Shown here: piece after piece, positions 4,028-27,908 of the stretch
Numbering within the stretch: position 1 is the stretch's first letter
Layout of the letters: the number at the start of each line of letters is the position of its first letter
Origin: a virus
DNA: 30,878 bases
Virus record (IMG/VR): IMGVR_UViG_3300050033_000072
Coordinates: 1 to 30,878 of that record
Strand: one strand, 5' to 3'
The notes under the pieces: model-generated
What the model saw: the letters and a program-made list of their open reading frames with translations, nothing else
The model's database searches: none
What the model was told of the DNA's origin: nothing
Translations under genes and position numbers: made by a program

Positions 4028-5746
4028 ATGAGTGAAATCGCTCAAGAGATTATCAAAATGCGGGACAAAGAGAAGCAGAAGGCACAGGGTTTTTGGTACA
4101 ACCTCTGGCAACCTGCCGCTGATCTATTCTGCCCGCGCGAAGATCAGATCAACACAACCCGTACGCCAGGTGAGGACAAGTCCGCGAGATTGACTGACAA
4201 CACTGGTGTGCGTTCCGCCAAGAAATGTGCCTCTGGCATGTTTGGCGTCAATTTCCCGTTCGGGATCAGGACGATAGGCGTCAAGGTAAAAAACCAGCGA
4301 ATCGGGGAACTGCCCAAGGTTAAGGAGTGGCGAAGGCTGGCCAGCGAGTTGCTATACGAGGACATCTTCGATTCCAACTTTTCGAAGCAGGCAAACGAGG
4401 CGCTTCTATCTGAAATCGTGTTCGGCACGGGCAACCTGTTTTCGGAGTGGGACGCCAAGGCTGGATGTCTCAATTTTAAGGAACACGCTATCTCGACGTA
4501 CACCATGAAGGAGAACAATCATGGCGACGTTGACACGATGATCTTGACGTTCAAATATACCACCCGCCAGGCGATTCAGCAGTTCGGCGCGGAAAATCTG
4601 GACTCGAAGATCGTCACGGACGCCAGTGAACTGAAGGGCGAATCCAACAAGTACGAATTCATCTACGTGGTTCGCCCCCGCACGGAATTAAATCCGCTCA
4701 TGGGCGACAACAAGAACTGGCCGTTCGAGTCGGTTTACGTGGATGTCAAGGCCGAGGAAGTCATTAAAGGCGTCAATCCAGCCGGGGACGAGAATGAGGC
4801 CGGCTTCAAGGAATTCCCGTTCCATGTGGCGCGATGGGAAAAGGGCAGTAACGAGAAGTGGGGCCGTGGTCCTGGCACCGACAATCTGGCCGATTGCCGG
4901 ATGCTTCAGAAGATGTTTGCCGACTTCATCCACATGTGCAACGTCGCCGGACTTCCGCCGACAGAGGTTCTTGAGGCGTTCGAGGGCAAGCCGAACATGC
5001 AGCCCGGCGGTGTCAACCGCGTTCAGCAAATGGGAAGTATACGAGGCATAGACAAGACCGCCCTTGGCGACATACGTGCGGTCTGGGAAGCCATAATCGA
5101 ACAGCGTAAGCGGCTCGAAGAAGCGTTCTATCTCAACGTTTTCCAGCCTATAACACAGGTTGAGGGTACGCACCGGACAGCGTTCGAGATGCAACAGCGG
5201 GCACAGGAAGCCATGAAGCAGCTTGCGTTGCCACAGGCCAACCTTGTAAGCGACTTCTTTTCGCCGTGCTTCATCAGGTGCTTACTGTTGGAAATCCGCT
5301 GGGGTCGCATCCCTTACCCGCCGATGGAGTTGATGAAGGTCGTTAGAAGGACCAAGACGGAAGTTGAAATCGATGTGGATGCTGACCAGCTTGGCATCGA
5401 GTACACCGGCCCGATTACCCTTGCCCTACAAAACCAGCAGGCCACCGGATTCCAGCAATGGCTTGAGATTATGGTGCAAGCCGTTCAAGGAACGCAAGAC
5501 CCGTCCATCATGGATAATGTCAATCTTGACGATGGATTCCAAACGCTCGGTGAGGCGCTCGGCGTGAAGTCAACCACGATAGCGACCGCCGAACAGATCG
5601 CCGCGAAGAGGGCGGCAAGGCAAAAGCAGCAGCAGACCCAGGCCGCGTTGCAGCAGGCCGAAGTCGCGGCTAAGGCGTACAAGAGTGCTAGTGGAGCACC
5701 CGAGCCCGGAAGCCCGGCTGAAGCGTTGATGGGAGCTAAGCAATAA
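4028..5746 (+). CDS. portal protein (T7 gp8-like head-tail connector)
   Basis: 572 residues, close to T7 gp8. It forms the dodecameric ring at the capsid vertex through which DNA is packaged and ejected. Recognisable stretches are the N-terminal LWQPAADLFCPRED with a following TDNTGVRSAKKCASGM, the central FHVARWEKGSNEKWGRGPG with LADCRMLQKM, and the C-terminal THRTAFEMQQRAQEA helix. The C-terminal 60 residues are rich in Q and A, as often in this family. GGAG at the end of the upstream gene provides its ribosome-binding site. The stop shares a base with the next start (TAATG). Confidence 0.92.
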   Translation: MSEIAQEIIKMRDKEKQKAQGFWYNLWQPAADLFCPREDQINTTRTPGEDKSARLTDNTGVRSAKKCASGMFGVNFPFGIRTIGVKVKNQRIGELPKVKEWRRLASELLYEDIFDSNFSKQANEALLSEIVFGTGNLFSEWDAKAGCLNFKEHAISTYTMKENNHGDVDTMILTFKYTTRQAIQQFGAENLDSKIVTDASELKGESNKYEFIYVVRPRTELNPLMGDNKNWPFESVYVDVKAEEVIKGVNPAGDENEAGFKEFPFHVARWEKGSNEKWGRGPGTDNLADCRMLQKMFADFIHMCNVAGLPPTEVLEAFEGKPNMQPGGVNRVQQMGSIRGIDKTALGDIRAVWEAIIEQRKRLEEAFYLNVFQPITQVEGTHRTAFEMQQRAQEAMKQLALPQANLVSDFFSPCFIRCLLLEIRWGRIPYPPMELMKVVRRTKTEVEIDVDADQLGIEYTGPITLALQNQQATGFQQWLEIMVQAVQGTQDPSIMDNVNLDDGFQTLGEALGVKSTTIATAEQIAAKRAARQKQQQTQAALQQAEVAAKAYKSASGAPEPGSPAEALMGAKQ

Positions 5747-6006
5747 TGGACGAAAAGATAAAAGTTATCCAGGCTTATCAGACGTGCTTCTCGACGGACG
5801 CCGGCAAGAGCGTGTTGGAGCACCTGAAATGGCTCGTCCATTACAACCGTTGCCATATAACAACCGATGGCCCGATTGACCCGAACAGACTCATTGCCGA
5901 CGAAGCAAGGCGAGGTCTTGTGCTTGGAATCATAACCAAGGTCGAGGCGAACCCCGACGAGTCCAAGCCAGAATTCGCCATAACAGAGGATATGAATAAT
6001 GGTTGA
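5746..6006 (+). CDS. Bbp19-like small phage protein
   Basis: 86 residues. It resembles the Bbp19-like family of short phage proteins, with a pattern of a phenylalanine-containing start, GKSVLEHLKWLV, then a D/P-rich turn and EARRGLVLGIIT. Such proteins regularly sit just after the portal gene. Bbp19 was described as a structural protein of Bordetella phages, but its exact role is not clear. The start codon overlaps the portal stop by one base and the 3' end overlaps the scaffold gene by eight bases, so it is translated as part of the head operon. Confidence 0.7.
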   Translation: MDEKIKVIQAYQTCFSTDAGKSVLEHLKWLVHYNRCHITTDGPIDPNRLIADEARRGLVLGIITKVEANPDESKPEFAITEDMNNG

Positions 6007-6886
6007 TGCAATTGAGACACCCGCAGCCGCTCCCGCACCGGAAGTGACACCTGCGGCCTCGCCCGTAGCCGCAGCTACCGCACCAGATGTTGTGTCGTTC
6101 CTGAACTCGGACGGAACGTTCAAGGAAGGTTGGCAAGAGGCTCTTGTGCCAGAGGACTTCCGTGGACTACGCGCCTATGGCACGTTCACTGACCTGAAGG
6201 GCTTGCTCAAGCAAGTCGGCAATCAGGACAAGGTATTGTCCAGGAACGGGCGAACCATCGTACCACCTTCCGATGACGCCACGCCGACCGAGAAGGATAT
6301 GTTCTACGAAGCCCTTGGTCGCCCCAAGGAGGCTAGTGGCTACAAGATCGAAGTGCCGCAAGGCATGGAAGTCAACAAGGAAAACTTGGCGGATATGCAG
6401 GCGCGGGCATACAAGGCCGGGCTGACACAGGCGCAGTTTAAGGAATTAGTATCCTACAACAATGAGATCGTGGCAAAGAACGCCGAAGCCGCCAAGACGC
6501 AACAGGAAGCCCAGCGGGTTGCCACCGAAAACGACCTCAAGAAGGAATGGGGCGCGGCATTCCCAGAAATGATGGCGATAGCGAACCAGATGATTGCCCA
6601 CAACGTCCCGGAAGCCGAACAGCCTGAATTGCTGGCCGCAATAGGCAACAGCAAGGCGGCGGCTAAGTTCCTGGCGACCATCGGAAGGAAGTTTACCGAG
6701 GCCAAGGGCGTCAACCTGGACGGAGCCAGCACGGTTGCCATGACGCCGGCAGAGGCCAGCGCCAAGGCTGATGAACTGATTGCGGAGCAAGTCAATGATC
6801 CCAAGATGCGAAGTATGAACCCGGCGAAGTACGAAAGACTTAACGTGGAGATACGACGGTTGAAGGAAATGGCAATCGTCAAGTAG
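5999..6886 (+). CDS. capsid scaffolding protein
   Basis: 295 residues. An Ala/Pro-rich N-terminus leads to a D..FKEGWQEAL...EDFRG block, a GRPKEASGYKI segment and a long charged helical C-terminal half ending in EIRRLKEMAIVK. This architecture, and the location directly before the major capsid gene, are typical of podovirus scaffolding proteins. These direct procapsid assembly and leave before or during packaging. No protease domain is visible. The start overlaps the preceding gene by eight bases. The 149-base gap after it holds a short perfect stem-loop (6936-6952) and the AAGGAAA site of the capsid gene. Confidence 0.85.
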   Translation: MVDAIETPAAAPAPEVTPAASPVAAATAPDVVSFLNSDGTFKEGWQEALVPEDFRGLRAYGTFTDLKGLLKQVGNQDKVLSRNGRTIVPPSDDATPTEKDMFYEALGRPKEASGYKIEVPQGMEVNKENLADMQARAYKAGLTQAQFKELVSYNNEIVAKNAEAAKTQQEAQRVATENDLKKEWGAAFPEMMAIANQMIAHNVPEAEQPELLAAIGNSKAAAKFLATIGRKFTEAKGVNLDGASTVAMTPAEASAKADELIAEQVNDPKMRSMNPAKYERLNVEIRRLKEMAIVK

Positions 6887-7035: not shown

Positions 7036-7992
7036 ATGCCACAAGTGTACAATCTGGACGAGGCTTTCGCTTCGGAGTATAGCAGCAGGCTGTATCTGAC
7101 AGCACAACAGAAGGGCAACGTTCTTCGCCCTTACATGGACTTCGAGCCACTCAATTCCGCCGCGAGTCTGTTTTACGACACACTCTCGCCGTCCGAGGCA
7201 CCGACCCCTGGAGTGACCCTGCACGGTGATACGCCAGTTGTCGAAAACAACTTCGGAGTGCGCATGCTGACACCGGCACTCTGGGAAACCGGGCACCTAC
7301 TGGACAAGGACAGGTACGCCCGCCTCAAGATCAACCCGCAAGGCAGCATCCTGTCCAACGACGCCGAGGCGTTCGGGCGGTTCGTGGATTCGCAAATCAT
7401 CGCTGCCGCTCTGGGTATCGCCTACACAGGCAAGAACGGCACTGGCCCGCAAGTCACCCTATACCAGGGTTCGCAGGGTATCAATGGCGACGGTACGACT
7501 TCCGCCGTTGGTACGTTGCCAGCCGTGGCGACTGTAGCACCCATGACTCTGAACAAGATTCGCTCCATGTCTCTCTTGTGCGACAGGGCCAACATGGGCG
7601 GGAATCGTATCTGGGTTGTTGACCCAGGCGACATCATCGCTATGTTGGGAATCCTGCAAATCACGAATAGTGACTACAACACCGTAAAGGCGTTGGCGCA
7701 GGGCGAGATCGACACGTTCATGGGCTTCAAGTTCGTCAAGCTGAACGGCCTGCCGCTGGACGCTGCAACTGGCACGGCAACCAGGACGTTCGTGTTTGAG
7801 GCGAACAAGGCCCTCAAGATGGTCGAACTGTCGAAGATGACCACGGATATCGCCCCTGACCCCACCAAGAGGTTCAACACCCGCATCTACTCCAAGATCG
7901 ACTTTGGGGTGGGCCGGACGGAAGAGGCCATTGTCCATGAGTGCCTGAACACCTACGCGTTCACGGCAGCCACGGCGATTGCCAGCCAGTAG
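7036..7992 (+). CDS. major capsid protein
   Basis: 318 residues. It forms the icosahedral shell, presumably with the HK97 fold used by all tailed phages. Supporting features are the acidic N-terminal region, the middle block around LLDKDRYARLKINPQGS, the strand IWVVDPGDIIAML followed by QGEIDTFMGFKFVKLNGLP, a pattern widespread in podovirus capsid proteins, and a C-terminal DFGVGRTEEAIVHE. It is preceded by an AAGGAAAA ribosome-binding site in a spacer long enough for a promoter, although none is obvious. It is followed by a stem-loop that could adjust downstream expression. Confidence 0.88.
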   Translation: MPQVYNLDEAFASEYSSRLYLTAQQKGNVLRPYMDFEPLNSAASLFYDTLSPSEAPTPGVTLHGDTPVVENNFGVRMLTPALWETGHLLDKDRYARLKINPQGSILSNDAEAFGRFVDSQIIAAALGIAYTGKNGTGPQVTLYQGSQGINGDGTTSAVGTLPAVATVAPMTLNKIRSMSLLCDRANMGGNRIWVVDPGDIIAMLGILQITNSDYNTVKALAQGEIDTFMGFKFVKLNGLPLDAATGTATRTFVFEANKALKMVELSKMTTDIAPDPTKRFNTRIYSKIDFGVGRTEEAIVHECLNTYAFTAATAIASQ

Positions 7993-23013: not shown

Positions 23014-23244
23014 ATGCAAAACGCATTCGACTGGCTGAAACTGAACGGCCCCCGAATCTACGGGGCGATGATCGCAGCAGACTTTGCCGCCCGCTCCCAG
23101 GGCTGGCATGAGCCTGTCTGGGTTGCAGCTACGCTGGCTGGACTGGGCGTCCTGCTGGCGGGTACTGCGGCAACCGTCGCCGGCGTGAAGTACGGCGTGC
23201 GCCTACTGTCGCCCCCGAAACTGGCCCGCAAGCGAACCAAATAG
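23014..23244 (+). CDS. small membrane protein, holin candidate
   Basis: 76 residues. One clear membrane segment at about 35-58 (VAATLAGLGVLLAGTAATVAG) follows an amphipathic N-terminal region, and the C-terminus is strongly basic (LARKRTK). Size, basic tail and position at the end of a cassette with lipoproteins and a papain-like enzyme suit a holin, which makes the timed hole in the inner membrane. Single-segment holins exist, but small membrane proteins of other function look the same. Starts after the duplicated GAAAGGACGATC leader and is followed by a strong terminator. Confidence 0.55.
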   Translation: MQNAFDWLKLNGPRIYGAMIAADFAARSQGWHEPVWVAATLAGLGVLLAGTAATVAGVKYGVRLLSPPKLARKRTK

Positions 23245-23252
23245 TATTCCCC

Positions 23253-23323
23253 GCGCCGTGCCCCCGGCGCTTACCCGCCCCTGCATCGGGTTCGTCCCCT
23301 TTCCCGGTGCAGGGGTAAATTTT
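23253..23323 (+). terminator. tandem hairpins with rho-independent terminator
   Basis: First a perfect GCGCCG/CGGCGC hairpin with a 6-base loop (23253-23270). Then a 13-bp stem, CCCCTGCATCGGG (23278-23290) with CCCGGTGCAGGGG (23303-23315), broken only by one T-G pair, followed by TAAATTTT. This closes the late operon. Confidence 0.85.
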
Positions 23324-23333
23324 CGGAATTTCC

Positions 23334-23362
23334 TTGACGAATTGTCGGGGGCGTGATTAAAT
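23334..23362 (+). promoter_or_regulatory. sigma70-type promoter of the non-coding region
   Basis: TTGACG (23334-23339), a 17-base spacer and TTAAAT (23357-23362), preceded by TG one base before the -10 (extended -10). Five of six bases match consensus in each box. It sits just after the late terminator, so it begins a separate transcript at about 23369. Confidence 0.75.
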
Positions 23363-23369
23363 AGCTTCA

Positions 23370-23903
23370 GGTGCGGCTAGTTACCGCGCCAGAAGTGTTT
23401 AGGAACTATGACGACAATTAAATACAATCTTGACAGCTTCAACCGGCCCGTCATGGCCGCTAGCGCTTCTGATCAAACTAGACTACAGCCAGGGAAACCT
23501 GGCTGTTTGTCTATTCAGGCTGAACGGCACGTCGGTTCAACTCCGGCGACAGCCTATCCAAGTTGCAAAGCCCATAGGAGCGTAACAACCCGTGGTGGGA
23601 TTGGTGGAGCGGCCTTCACGGACGCCAGTTTAGCACACAGAGTCTCCTTGGGAACGCCCACAATGACTACCTTACCGCCGTGTGCGGTCCATCGTCAAAG
23701 TGGTGTCCTTCCGACCGTGGCTCCTTTACGCTGCATATCTTGTAGGCAAACTCCAACTTTTCGTGTTTTTGCTTGCACAAGCTTCTTGCGCTCGGACTCG
23801 TCATCCTGCACCCAGTTGACAAGAGCCTAGAGACAACGTAGCCGGCATGATGCAGACAATGGTGAACGGGATGGTGGACAGAGAAGGGTCTTGTTGTTTC
23901 TTA
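23370..23903 (+). ncRNA. candidate large structured non-coding RNA
   Basis: About 530 bases with a strong promoter in front and no convincing protein. Structure is visible by eye. A 5' hairpin GGTGCGG/CCGCGCC lies at 23370-23387. A long hairpin at 23479-23513 has an 8-bp stem closed by a GAAA tetraloop plus a 5-bp outer helix. An element at 23517-23556 has a T-arm with loop TTCAACT and 5-bp stem, closed by AGGCTG/CAGCCT. Further pieces are a small hairpin ACCGC/GCGGT near 23673, a long-range pairing AGCGTAA (23579) with TTACGCT (23726), and a closing helix ACAAGAGCC (23819) with GGGTCTTGT (23886) followed by TTGTTTCTT, which may be the terminator. Size and phage context resemble GOLLD/ROOL-class RNAs; identity is not established. 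Confidence 0.55.
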
Positions 23904-25600: not shown

Positions 25601-25822
25601 ATGAAAATATTCCAGAATTGCCAACGAGTACGAGTGATGAGCGGCGTCCGTGCCCTAATTGGAAAAACGGGGCGCATAGAGAGATTAGGGGTTGCCGACA
25701 GTGGGGCATGGGTCACGATGGATGAGCCCCTCTCAGAGGAGATCGCCAGCTTCCCCGTTGGCGACACCCACCGAAACAGTATCTTTCTATATCCCGAAGA
25801 ATGCGAACCGGCTGGCGCGTGA
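25601..25822 (+). CDS. small phage protein with SH3-like beta fold
   Basis: 73 residues from the ATG at 25601. The pattern VRVMSGVRALIGKTGRIERL, then AWVTMDEPL, FPVGDTHRNSIFLYPEECE, recurs in small early phage proteins and has the strand spacing of a KOW/SH3-like barrel, where the GKTGRI turn resembles a KOW motif. Function is not known. It starts one base after the previous stop. Confidence 0.65.
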   Translation: MKIFQNCQRVRVMSGVRALIGKTGRIERLGVADSGAWVTMDEPLSEEIASFPVGDTHRNSIFLYPEECEPAGA

Positions 25823-25890
25823 CCAGTGGCGTACACGTCCGCCTTGGCCAGGGCACAAGCGAGACGACAATCGAAGAAAGGGACTGCTAA
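25819..25890 (+). CDS. possible 23-residue peptide
   Basis: A GTG overlapping the preceding stop (GTGA) opens a 23-codon frame that ends two bases before the next ATG. The spacing is suggestive of a translated link in the operon, but the peptide is too short to judge and shows no known motif. Confidence 0.2.
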   Translation: MTSGVHVRLGQGTSETTIEERDC

Positions 25891-25892
25891 TA

Positions 25893-26648
25893 ATGTGCAA
25901 TTTCAAATCAGCCATCGTGACGAAATCCGGCGAAGTCTATCACCATCCGCTGACGGACTCGCACAATGACATTATCGAATTATTCAATCTACACAATGGC
26001 GAGAATCCGCAATTCACCCCAGTCGAATTAGTGCCGGACACAGACTGTTTTGACGTGGACACCTACAAGTTCCGGTTTGACGCCGAACGTCCGGGATGGG
26101 CAACGGACGAATGGGTTGAGCGAGTTACAAAGAAGATGCGAGCCATTGTCCGCGAAATGATATTTACGAAAAAGGCCAAAATACTGGTTGGCGGCGCGTA
26201 TCTTTTGGGCGCCGGGGCAAAGGTCGGCAAGATCATCCAAGGGCGCATAGTGGCCATTAGCAAGGATTTGAACCTTGCCTATGCGGACCTTGCCGGTGTG
26301 AATTTTGCCCATGCGAACCTTGCCCATGTGAACCTTGCCTATGCGAACCTTGCCCATGCGAACCTTGCCGGTGTGAATTTTGCCCATGCGAACCTTGCCG
26401 GTGTGAATTTTGCCCATGCGAACCTTGCCGGTGTGAATTTTGCCCATGCGTACCTTGCCTATGCGAACCTTGCCGGTGTGAATTTTGCCCATGCGTACCT
26501 TGCCGGTGCGTACCTTGCCGGTGCGTACCTTGCCTATGTGAACCTTGCCTATGTGAACCTTGCCGGTGTGAACCTTGCCGGTGCGATACGTTACGTCGAT
26601 GCCCCTGCCGGGTGGAAGATCGAAAACAGCTTTTTAGTCAAAGAATAG
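25893..26648 (+). CDS. pentapeptide-repeat protein with phage N-terminal domain
   Basis: 251 residues from the ATG at 25893, preceded by AAAGGGA. Residues 1-125 (MCNFKSAIVTKSGEVYHHPL, FDAERPGWATDEW, ILVGGAYLLGAGAKVGKII) match a domain I recognise from bacterial and phage proteins that usually continue into short tandem repeats such as QVGEM. Residues 127-231 are 21 pentapeptides of the type [NYD][LF]A[HYG][AV], the pattern of pentapeptide-repeat proteins that fold as right-handed beta-helices. A short unique end (DAPAGWKIENSFLVKE) follows. Some such helices mimic DNA, for example gyrase-protecting Qnr, but this one is not noticeably acidic. Function unknown. Confidence 0.75.
   Translation: MCNFKSAIVTKSGEVYHHPLTDSHNDIIELFNLHNGENPQFTPVELVPDTDCFDVDTYKFRFDAERPGWATDEWVERVTKKMRAIVREMIFTKKAKILVGGAYLLGAGAKVGKIIQGRIVAISKDLNLAYADLAGVNFAHANLAHVNLAYANLAHANLAGVNFAHANLAGVNFAHANLAGVNFAHAYLAYANLAGVNFAHAYLAGAYLAGAYLAYVNLAYVNLAGVNLAGAIRYVDAPAGWKIENSFLVKE
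26271..26585 (+). repeat. 21 tandem 15-bp coding repeats
   Basis: Units such as AACCTTGCCGGTGTG and AATTTTGCCCATGCG repeat without interruption for 315 bases. The 30-bp pair NLAGV-NFAHA is repeated three times in a row (units 7-12). Near identity at DNA level, beyond what the protein pattern needs, implies recent expansion or copying by slippage or recombination. Each gain or loss of a unit keeps the reading frame. Confidence 0.95.
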
Positions 26649-26728
26649 GCCGGGATGTTCCCAGCCTGCCCCGCTGCCTGTAATCGGCGGGACGAATGTG
26701 CCCCGGCTGCGTTTAGCCACCAGCCGGG
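26648..26728 (+). other. two mutually exclusive stem-loops at the start of a 546-base non-coding gap
   Basis: CCCGGCT at 26702-26708 can pair with GGCCGGG-type bases upstream (26648-26654) or, perfectly over seven pairs, with AGCCGGG downstream (26722-26728). An inner CCCGC/GCGGG stem lies within the first option. Such a switchable pairing is seen in attenuators, but chance in GC-rich DNA is possible. Confidence 0.3.
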
Positions 26729-26733
26729 ATTAT

Positions 26734-26828
26734 GGGATGGCGGCGATGGCGGGCAAGTTGTCACCAGCCGCACATGGAAACGCTTGAGGAAATGCGAGCG
26801 CTGCAAGGTTCGACTCCTTGCCATCCCG
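26734..26828 (+). tRNA. tRNA-like element A
   Basis: GGGATGG (26734-26740) and CCATCCC (26821-26827) form a perfect 7-bp acceptor-like stem. Directly before the 3' strand is a canonical T-arm, CAAGG-TTCGACT-CCTTG (26804-26820). Two other arms fit inside: GCGG/CCGC with a 15-base loop, and CGCTTG/CGAGCG with an 8-base loop. A normal 7-base anticodon loop with U33 could not be fitted, so it may be a diverged tRNA, a tRNA pseudogene or a tRNA mimic. Confidence 0.45.
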
Positions 26829-26830
26829 AT

Positions 26831-26898
26831 GGACTCGTGGAACTGTGGCTCTACTGGAGAGCGGGGCCAGAGGCGGCGAATGCCAGCCCGCGAGTCCG
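26831..26898 (+). ncRNA. tRNA-like element B (short)
   Basis: GGACTCG (26831-26837) pairs perfectly with CGAGTCC (26891-26897), starting two bases after element A. Inside are GCTCT/AGAGC around a 5-base loop, GGGC/GCCC, and a GGC-GGCGAAT-GCC arm with a 7-base loop resembling a T-loop. At 68 bases it is too short for a standard tRNA. Confidence 0.35.
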
Positions 26899-26902
26899 AT
26901 AC

Positions 26903-26989
26903 GCGGCGGTGGCGTGAAGCCTGCAAAACTTCACGTCGCAAATGGTTAAGGTGCTAGCGCCAAGTAGGGTTCAAATCCCTTCCGCCGCA
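26903..26989 (+). tRNA. tRNA-like element C with GCA-anticodon-like loop
   Basis: GCGGCGG (26903-26909) pairs perfectly with CCGCCGC (26982-26988), followed by A. A T-arm AGGG-TTCAAAT-CCCT lies just before the 3' strand. The first internal arm is CGTGAAG/CTTCACG; its loop contains CTGCAAA, the usual sequence of a cysteine (GCA) anticodon loop. Yet it precedes, rather than follows, a D-loop-like AAATGGTTAAGG, and a GGTG/CGCC variable-arm-like hairpin comes next. The parts are those of a tRNA but the order is wrong for one. Confidence 0.45.
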
Positions 26990-26990
26990 A

Positions 26991-27089
26991 TAGTGACGTG
27001 AACGCTGCTGGCGACCGGGCCGGGAGCGTGTTCGAGGGCCGGAATATGCAACCCTCGGACTGGTGCGGAATCCGCCCACGTCACTACCA
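26991..27089 (+). ncRNA. tRNA-like element D with encoded CCA
   Basis: TAGTGACGTG (26991-27000) pairs perfectly with CACGTCACTA (27077-27086), and CCA follows at 27087-27089. Three arms lie inside in cloverleaf order: ACGCT/AGCGT, a TCGAGGG/CCCTCGG arm with a 13-base loop, and GGTG/CGCC with loop CGGAATC. It begins one base after element C. The 10-bp acceptor and large middle loop are not those of an elongator tRNA. Confidence 0.4.
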
Positions 27090-27105
27090 ATGTAGCACCG
27101 GCGTT

Positions 27106-27176
27106 GCCGCTGGCAGCCGTGTGGTGAAATGGGAGTAGCCTACCACACGTGATTGGCCCTGCCAGCGGCGCGCCGC
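27106..27176 (+). promoter_or_regulatory. long nested hairpin and palindrome before the next gene
   Basis: GCCGCTGGCAG (27106-27116) pairs perfectly with CTGCCAGCGGC (27159-27169), and inside it CGTGTGGT pairs with ACCACACG. The 3' arm runs into a 12-bp perfect palindrome GCGGCGCGCCGC (27165-27176). It ends 18 bases before the ATG at 27195, so it could control that gene or end the tRNA-like transcript. Confidence 0.45.
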
Positions 27177-27194
27177 TAAATTGAAAGGGACACA

Positions 27195-27908
27195 ATGAAA
27201 CGCGACGTCTACCGATGGGATTCTGAATCCCATTATACCGAATTAAGGACGGGCATTAGTGGCGACAATGGCGTGCTTAGTGTGTTGTCAGACAACGAGA
27301 TCACCGCCGACGAAGCGGCTCGGCTGACGAAGCCCGCCGAAGAGTGGCCACAGTATTATGTGCCCGTATTGTGGCTTGGGTACGAGCGATCATTGATGGA
27401 GTTTATGGATGCTACTGCTCCAGTTATTGTTTACAACCACACGCCTAGCGAGACTTATAATCTTTCGTTGCACCAAGTCCGCCTGGACCACACATTCCAG
27501 CGTCTCACCCTCGCCGAAGGTCAGGCACTCAAAGCCCAGCTGATGCAGCCCCAGCTGCGATTCCGCGTCGGGCAGTATGTGACACATGTAGGGTATCCTT
27601 GGCAAATCAAATCACGACATGAGGGCGGGGCTCGGATATCGTGGAACCTCGCTCGTCCAGATGGTAAGACGGGGGTTCTGTTCGATGACGACGCCGACTG
27701 GCAACCCTACCCTGAGGGCGAGATACCGCCAGAGTTCAAGCCGAAGCCGAAGCCGAAGCCGAAGCCGAAGCCGAAGCCGAAGCCGGAAATCATCTGCGGG
27801 CGGTGTGGGTTGGAAGGTAAGGAAACCGAAACAGCGGGAATTGGCCGATGCCCGCAATGTGGCTCTCGCAACTGGGACTTCGCCGACACCCGAAAGGAAG
27901 CGGAATAA
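27195..27908 (+). CDS. protein with (Lys-Pro) linker and C-terminal zinc ribbon
   Basis: 237 residues. The first 180 residues form an unrecognised domain, including an EPxxW-like RFRVGQYVTHVGYPWQIKS barrel-like stretch that resembles small SH3-type modules. Then come eight Lys-Pro pairs (about 182-197), and a zinc ribbon with CGRCG and CPQCG about 20 residues apart. Lys-Pro runs are stiff, extended linkers and would hold the ribbon away from the body. GAAAGGGA precedes the start. Its stop shares a base with the next start (TAATG), linking it to the recombination nuclease. A nucleic-acid-related role is likely but not shown. Confidence 0.65.
   Translation: MKRDVYRWDSESHYTELRTGISGDNGVLSVLSDNEITADEAARLTKPAEEWPQYYVPVLWLGYERSLMEFMDATAPVIVYNHTPSETYNLSLHQVRLDHTFQRLTLAEGQALKAQLMQPQLRFRVGQYVTHVGYPWQIKSRHEGGARISWNLARPDGKTGVLFDDDADWQPYPEGEIPPEFKPKPKPKPKPKPKPKPEIICGRCGLEGKETETAGIGRCPQCGSRNWDFADTRKEAE
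27738..27785 (+). repeat. 8 tandem 6-bp repeats coding (Lys-Pro)8
   Basis: AAGCCG is repeated eight times without change. Identical codons throughout point to slippage, and unit number may vary without loss of frame. Confidence 0.95.

Follow-up and report, generated by a model that had tools for sequence, protein, structure and literature searches.

A phage tRNA-like gene with exchanged anticodon arm and D-loop, and a probable class of permuted tRNAs in several phage families

In a normal tRNA the chain runs through the acceptor stem, the 5' strand of the D-stem, the D-loop, the 3' strand of the D-stem, the anticodon arm, the variable region and the T-arm. To our knowledge, every mature tRNA described has this same order of parts, even the armless mitochondrial forms. 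In circularly permuted tRNA genes the 3' half lies before the 5' half and bulge-helix-bulge processing restores the normal tRNA (PMC3218864). Phage tRNAs are known to counter tRNA-degrading defences, an example being the tRNA-Tyr of T5, which acts against retron-Eco7 (PMC11555353). A search of open-licence PMC papers, which is weak evidence of novelty, gave no description of tRNAs with an exchanged anticodon arm and D-loop. The phage element described here, E3, has the chain order acceptor, D-stem 5' strand, anticodon arm, D-stem 3' strand, D-loop and T-arm.

The window, that is the whole stretch of DNA analysed, is record IMGVR_UViG_3300050033_000072 of 30,878 bases. Since it encodes a terminase large subunit (phrog_675), a head-tail adaptor (phrog_332), a major head protein, a tail protein, an exonuclease VIII-like protein with a PDDEXK domain and a Holliday junction resolvase, we assign it to a tailed phage, which is probably podovirus-like. 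The array is flanked by a pentapeptide-repeat protein gene (25692-26648) and an unassigned gene at 27195. The former, directly upstream of the array, contains near-perfect DNA repeats. Five abutting segments tile 26734-27168, every one with a perfect closing stem. The closed segments span 26734-26827, 26831-26897, 26903-26988, 26991-27086 and 27108-27168; the elements are listed here with the folding-energy z of the + strand:

26734..26828, + strand: E1, tRNA-like, with a perfect acceptor stem and T-arm by fold and by T-arm/acceptor scan; closed by GGGATGG/CCATCCC; z -2.3
26831..26898, + strand: E2, closed by 7 bp (GGACTCG/CGAGTCC), with two inner hairpins and no canonical T-loop; z -5.37
26903..26989, + strand: E3, a tRNA-like gene whose anticodon arm and D-loop are swapped, anticodon GCA; closed by GCGGCGG/CCGCCGC; MFE fold, z -3.57, 22 bits to RF00005
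26991..27089, + strand: E4, closed by 10 bp (TAGTGACGTG/CACGTCACTA, then CCA), cloverleaf-like, ending in ACTACCA, with no canonical T-loop; z -4.88
27106..27170, + strand: E5, a long stem (CCGCTGGCAG/CTGCCAGCGG) with one inner hairpin (loop region GAAATGGGAG); z -4.40

An earlier sequence-only reading had reported four segments with perfect closing stems of 7-10 bp, one of them ending in CCA. The four are real, E5 is a fifth, and the CCA is that of E4; the gaps among the first four measure 2-5 bases instead of the 1-4 it gave, and E4 and E5 are spaced by about 20 bases. When non-overlapping closed segments of 55-110 nt were counted, 26730-27175 held five, whereas 0 of 3000 dinucleotide shuffles reached five and 7 of 3000 reached four. 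The same test slid over the whole contig found four segments at just one other site, near 12.5 kb. Folding was weaker on the - strand than on the + strand for E1-E4, and the 561-nt block as a whole had a folding z of -6.0. The strongest stretch of RNA structure in the window was seen at 23201-23600, with a mean z of about -3 over eight 120-nt windows.

ARAGORN found no tRNAs in the window, and Rfam gave no match at the gathering score, including none to tmRNA. In a permissive Rfam search E3 matched RF00005 with 22 bits (gathering score 29) and E1 matched tRNA-Sec with 17.2 bits. A 7-bp acceptor stem and a T-arm with a TTCRA loop in the normal position are present in both E1 and E3, whose T-arms, next to the acceptor 3' strand, are of textbook form; E2, E4 and E5 are without a T-loop. 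A third such T-arm, unlisted in the earlier reading, lies at 23501-23554 in a separate, shorter element:

23501..23555, + strand: E6, a mini element of 54 nt with acceptor stem, T-arm and short middle, from the T-arm/acceptor scan

E1 and E6 are probably tRNA-derived. The interior of E1 consists of a long first arm (outer stem CGGC/GCCG), then CACATGGAAA, a hairpin like a variable arm and the T-arm. This build is like that of E3, yet it has no anticodon loop meeting our parse rules, which returned neither a permuted nor a canonical parse for E1. E4 was rejected as a tRNA: it has the CCA and a cloverleaf-like fold, but it lacks a T-loop and carries a 13-base loop at the anticodon position. The earlier proposal of strongly diverged tRNAs suits E1 and perhaps E4, but neither yielded a relative. 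Mini elements resembling tRNAs (49-57 nt), laid out as an acceptor, one short hairpin with GG and a T-arm, were also seen in L053 (minus strand, 5587-5643) and L115 (minus strand, 4937-4985), alongside the one at 23501-23555 in the window.

E3 can be read in the following parts:

26903..26909, + strand: acceptor 5' strand GCGGCGG, 7 of 7 pairs with 26982-26988, probability 0.98-1.0 at 6 of 7
26911..26915, + strand: D-stem 5' strand GGCGT, pairing with 26933-26937, probability 0.99 at 5 of 5
26916..26932, + strand: anticodon arm GAAGC-CTGCAAA-ACTTC, anticodon GCA at 26923-26925, U33 and A37 in the loop
26933..26937, + strand: D-stem 3' strand ACGTC, following the anticodon arm, from pair probabilities
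26940..26949, + strand: D-loop-like single strand AAATGGTTAA, following the D-stem 3' strand and GC, by direct reading
26950..26961, + strand: hairpin GGTG-CTAG-CGCC in the variable-arm position, then AAG, from the MFE fold
26965..26981, + strand: T-arm TAGGG-TTCAAAT-CCCTT, with a T-T mismatch at the outer pair

The MFE and centroid folds are both the permuted fold, and its nine D-stem and anticodon-stem pairs have probabilities of 0.98-0.99. In the anticodon stem 4 of 5 pairs are at a probability of at least 0.98, with a C-A mismatch adjoining the loop, which reads CUGCAAA. The D-loop (AAAUGGUUA) is placed between the D-stem 3' strand and the T-arm, and the earlier observation of a GCA anticodon-like loop adjoining a D-loop-like sequence in the wrong order was correct. 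Under parse rules that were set after E3 had been seen, its permuted-parse score was matched by 1 of 20000 dinucleotide shuffles of the interior, and the same rules gave E3 no canonical parse. Two other accounts of the order were rejected. Removal of the first hairpin as an archaeal-type intron leaves no anticodon, and a circular permutation is at odds with the acceptor strands, which are in normal order and position.

Relatives of the array itself were not found by several routes. A blastn search of 26500-27300 against phages gave just four matches of 30-35 bases, which were taken as spurious; the 3' end of E1 had no exact match among viral contigs; and neither the exonuclease nor the head-tail adaptor, each used as a single-sequence protein query, had a relative among viral contigs. 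The terminase search gave 5 relatives and the terminase alignment 64. Among the terminase relatives, 10 of 40 records matched RF00005 at E <= 1, 4 of them above the cut-off, and 814 kb of terminase-related contigs held 10 acceptor plus T-arm sites (3 in the window) against a shuffled mean of 0.33. None of the T-arm/acceptor or RF00005 sites of these relatives was a homologue of E1-E5; the elements of L044/L045 (one base apart) and of L076 are alike in kind only, and a structure z-scan of the terminase relatives did not single out the array. A tmRNA was considered and rejected, the sole match being an element of a distant relative (L081/L089) that scored 28.1 bits to RF00023, below the cut-off of 47, with none in the window. 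In L076 we noted an apparently non-coding stretch of 1.26 kb (4833-6095) about 4.3 kb upstream of the terminase, which is where the array would fall if the contig were circularly permuted; it includes a tRNA-like element of 60 nt (5066-5125), seemingly without a D-arm.

The arm order of E3 was found in a set of tRNAs from unrelated phages. A first pattern for the wrong order, specific for Cys, gave six loci, which were rejected as normal tRNAs and coding sequence. A second gave at least 119 loci, mostly canonical tRNAs with Ser/Leu variable arms, together with the first permuted tRNAs, which were recognised when the T-arm/acceptor elements of the fetched phage arrays were sorted by arm order. 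In seven hand-found members, aligned with MAFFT and not fitted to structure, all three D-stem pairs around the anticodon arm are formed in 7 of 7 and are changed on both sides. A third pattern, which was confined to the D-loop, the T-arm and the final part of the D-stem and was silent on the anticodon arm, the D-stem 5' strand and the acceptor, gave at least 126 matches in at least 120 viral contigs. In 106 of the 126 third-pattern matches listed, both an acceptor stem and an anticodon arm carrying U33 and R37 are present at the predicted places. A side observation concerns L106, where two phage tRNA genes of 120-122 nt (minus strand, 7248-7369 and 7493-7612) carry inserts in or near the anticodon arm that share AACAGCAATT motifs and are possibly small tRNA introns.

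Covariance-model alignment brought together 95 matches at E <= 1e-7 only, from 100 sources (74 of the 120 third-pattern loci, 7 of 73 cellular-contig loci, 11 named phages, 7 earlier loci and the window). In this alignment, which was fitted to the model structure and so favours pairing, 96.5% of cells are paired overall and 96.6% in the D-stem enclosing the anticodon arm. Compensatory changes occur at 3 of 3 D-stem pairs; two-sided changes are seen in 708 cells, compared with 225 in shuffles, and the whole-structure covariation score is 0.935 against 0.214 for shuffled and at most 0.156 for slid alignments. This recurrence and covariation support for E3 the earlier suggestion of rearranged tRNAs. 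By our own reading, energy folding alone reproduced the complete permuted structure for 4 of 8 further members. A shift of the whole D-arm to behind the anticodon arm was rejected, as by eye the strands flanking the D-loop do not keep their pairing across members, whereas the D5' and D3' strands keep theirs across the anticodon arm. The tRNA-Ser-ACT of Salmonella phage S124, in which the D-loop adjoins the T-arm but no valid anticodon arm is present, was left uncounted.

Matches were also found in cellular genome contigs, where 20 of 73 parse as permuted, several of them within dense tRNA arrays. Permuted Ile(UAU) elements lie in Bacteroidota contigs (L284 2335-2411, L285 5451-5527 and L321 3620-3696) with ordinary bacterial genes as neighbours (PhyH, histidine kinase, C45 hydrolase), and are possibly either integrated phage cassettes or cellular. 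Beside the one in L285, within the stretch 5450-5620, is a cloverleaf-ordered element (GGAGATT...AATCTCC) whose anticodon loop has GAA, whose D-loop has no GG and whose T-loop is AGCATTA instead of TTCRA; it is perhaps a tRNA with a changed elbow.

At least 138 distinct permuted elements without an overlapping ARAGORN call were collected from loci of up to 18 kb, and almost all are Arg or Ile, a dominance that the search pattern may itself favour. The anticodons of the 138 listed are UCU (39), ACG (31), UAU (30), GAU, CCU and UCG (10 each), CAU (3), GCG (2) and CCG, GUA and ACA (1 each); all but GUA, ACA and perhaps CAU belong to Arg and Ile, and such pattern-derived frequencies describe the matches listed and are not prevalences. 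The permuted Tyr(GUA), at 1330-1422 of L165, whose locus has 20 further isoacceptors but lacks a canonical Tyr, shows that the class extends beyond Arg and Ile.

A20 is the main Arg determinant in bacteria and A73 is among the determinants for Ile (PMC9976931). Identity bases were counted in 136 of the 138 elements (93 Arg, 40 Ile and 3 CAU, with GTA and ACA left out). Among the matches listed, position 20 of the displaced D-loop, after the GG, reads A in 92 of 93 permuted Arg and in 0 of 40 permuted Ile, of which 39 of 40 have U. In the canonical tRNAs of the same loci A20 is found in 112 of 115 Arg, other isotypes having mostly U or C. A73 is present in 40 of 40 permuted Ile among the matches listed; the discriminators of permuted Arg vary (G 37, U 28, A 25, C 3) and are a poorer fit. 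The pattern at base 20 is the strongest sign that the moved segment may still be a D-loop and may still be read by the synthetase.

The permuted elements also appear to occupy the places of ordinary tRNAs. The Streptomyces phages Jay2Jay (viewed outside 50001-66242) and Mildred21, both Samistivirus, have collinear tRNA arrays, and the canonical Arg(UCU), Arg(UCG) and Arg(ACG) of Jay2Jay are permuted, with the same anticodons, in Mildred21, where the permuted Arg loci are at 86379-86453, 91367-91442 and 94857-94933; the exchanged sites share their neighbours, which are Gly and Ala, Lys and Met, and a preceding Thr. Among the listed matches in loci with at least 8 canonical tRNAs, the permuted anticodon was also canonical in 2 of 70 cases, compared with 94 of 357 cases for the same set of anticodons when no permuted one was present. 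Counter to this, a canonical double exists for 3 of 13 permuted tRNAs across nine phage genomes (GAU in Jay2Jay, where the permuted Ile is at 75237-75313, and in Mildred21, ACG in Zooman). Pseudomonas phage PA11 carries a permuted Arg(UCU), and ARAGORN finds no tRNA in it. From the arrangement of these arrays it seems that permuted tRNAs stand in for ordinary Arg and Ile tRNAs. Jay2Jay (KM652554) also encodes a T4-like RNA ligase, a polynucleotide kinase and a Ro-like protein, and has a nucleotidyltransferase gene directly beside a permuted tRNA; together these are possibly a tRNA-repair kit.

By BLAST an Ile query matched 100 records, 81 of them Streptomyces phages and 78 covering at least 80% of the query, and an Arg query matched 298 Vibrio and 4 Caulobacter phage records; 12 named loci were checked by eye, and for the remaining records the count comes from BLAST alone. 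Named carriers include the crAss-like tikkala and cr130_1, Microbacterium phage Zooman, the Pseudomonas phages PA11 and Bitten, Alishewanella phage Slicko01 and Maribacter phage Panino. With the covariance model R1 at E <= 1e-6, permuted elements were found in 16 of 18 whole records, those of Vibrio phages D260 and PG07 being missed though found by alignment. ARAGORN calls overlap 7 of the 126 permuted elements among the matches listed, and in the named phages examined the permuted loci are mostly unannotated, one in EGole being labelled tRNA-Leu and one in Slicko01 tRNA-Ser.

How firmly E3 itself belongs to this class has to be weighed. Its D-loop AAATGGTTAA matches the displaced D-loop of the class in place and form, GG included. 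E3 has T8 but G9, the class having T8 in 135 of 136 and A9 in 135 of 136, and its anticodon is Cys, outside the usual Arg and Ile. The discriminator is A73, and U73 is a determinant for bacterial CysRS (PMC9976931), so that a Cys anticodon without U73 makes charging doubtful. Against R1 it scores 21.0 bits, within the range of canonical phage-array tRNAs (up to about 33 bits; range taken from 97 of the 119 second-pattern loci, L127-L223). It could be argued that E3 resembles the class by chance, as a T-arm/acceptor element with an inserted hairpin, since it is no sequence relative of the Arg and Ile members and its score is one that canonical tRNAs also reach. We regard this as unlikely, given how rarely shuffles reached its parse score under those post hoc rules, that its anticodon loop and D-loop are both of consensus form, and that a permuted Tyr exists in L165. 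By architecture alone E3 would probably be a true member. The explanation as a whole, in which E3 is a tRNA gene of permuted topology and the class shows this architecture with its covariation, its identity bases and the replacement of Arg tRNAs, we likewise judge probable.

A further possibility is that the array, including E3, consists of decaying pseudo-tRNAs that were once canonical, were rearranged or received insertions and lost their function. ARAGORN recognises no canonical tRNA in the window, E1, E2, E4 and E5 lack a decodable anticodon loop, E3 lacks U73, and neither blastn, exact matching nor the terminase relatives yielded a conserved relative of the array. Decay would not be expected, however, to leave perfect 7-10 bp stems on five abutting elements, far above what shuffles give, or folds of this strength, and the order of E3 recurs elsewhere as a conserved class, so that this explanation appears improbable. 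About as improbable is that 26650-27170 is one structured non-coding RNA, or a series of tRNA-like signals for RNase P/Z to cut a longer transcript. The folding z of the 561-nt block, the abutting of the elements and the lack of a T-loop in several of them would suit such an RNA, but E1 and E3 have the exact geometry of T-arm, acceptor and discriminator, the anticodon loop of E3 is a textbook one, and no Rfam family matched. It is very unlikely that the elements serve as bait, or as the decoys that the sequence-only reading had proposed, for host nucleases acting on tRNAs or for defence enzymes that modify them: phage tRNAs do counter tRNA-cutting defences (PMC11555353), and E3, with GCA and without U73, could mimic tRNA-Cys while itself staying uncharged, but the decoy reading finds no support in the wider class because its members keep isotype-specific synthetase identity bases and take the places of canonical tRNAs one for one, and nothing points to a particular defence in this phage.

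We return to E3 as a permuted tRNA gene and to the class that it would belong to, whose members, as judged from their sequences, are very probably functional tRNAs. With the anticodon arm closing the D-stem, the D-stem and the anticodon stem would become one hairpin, and the D-loop would form the link from this hairpin into the T-arm, beside the T-loop that it must touch. There the displaced D-loop could still offer G18-G19 for docking with the T-loop and base 20 for the synthetase. In such a three-dimensional reading the parts needed by the synthetase and the ribosome could sit at their usual places under a different connectivity. The mature RNA would then retain the permuted topology, fold into the L, be charged and decode. 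The gain may be that host enzymes which cut or check tRNAs by their core geometry fail to recognise a permuted tRNA. We hold with good confidence that phages of several families carry a second tRNA chain topology, used in decoding for mainly Arg and Ile, occasionally Tyr and, in the window, Cys, which replaces canonical tRNAs and whose likely gain would be escape from host enzymes that recognise the ordinary core.

If the class is natural in this sense, it would be the L-shape and its contacts, and not the connectivity of the cloverleaf, that synthetases, the ribosome and the processing enzymes require. The canonical and permuted Arg pairs at the same array sites of related Streptomyces phages make this idea directly testable. 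It would also give a new angle on why phages carry tRNAs, namely the evasion of tRNA-cutting defences. Since standard finders miss most permuted tRNAs, phage tRNA repertoires would have been undercounted, and a systematic gap in tRNA annotation is exposed.

Compared with the canonical tRNA (RF00005), the class shares the acceptor stem, U8-A9, the T-arm, an anticodon arm with U33 and R37, a D-loop with A14, G18G19 and base 20, and isotype-specific identity bases; it differs in that the two D-stem strands enclose the anticodon arm, while the D-loop is found between the D-stem 3' strand and the T-arm. The tRNA-like domain of tmRNA (RF00023) has an acceptor and T-arm without a normal anticodon arm, whereas E3 has an anticodon arm. 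Phage tRNAs that counter defences are, like the permuted ones, phage-encoded and found in dense arrays, but they are apparently ordinary in order (PMC11555353). The D-armless or minimal mitochondrial tRNAs of nematodes and mites also depart from the cloverleaf and are functional, but they reportedly lack an arm, whereas the permuted class keeps all parts in a new order (PMC2797822). The gene order is non-canonical both here and in the circularly permuted tRNA genes of red algae and Thermofilum pendens; unlike those genes, the class has its 5' and 3' ends in place and its inner segments exchanged, so that no single cut and circularisation would give back the cloverleaf (PMC3218864).
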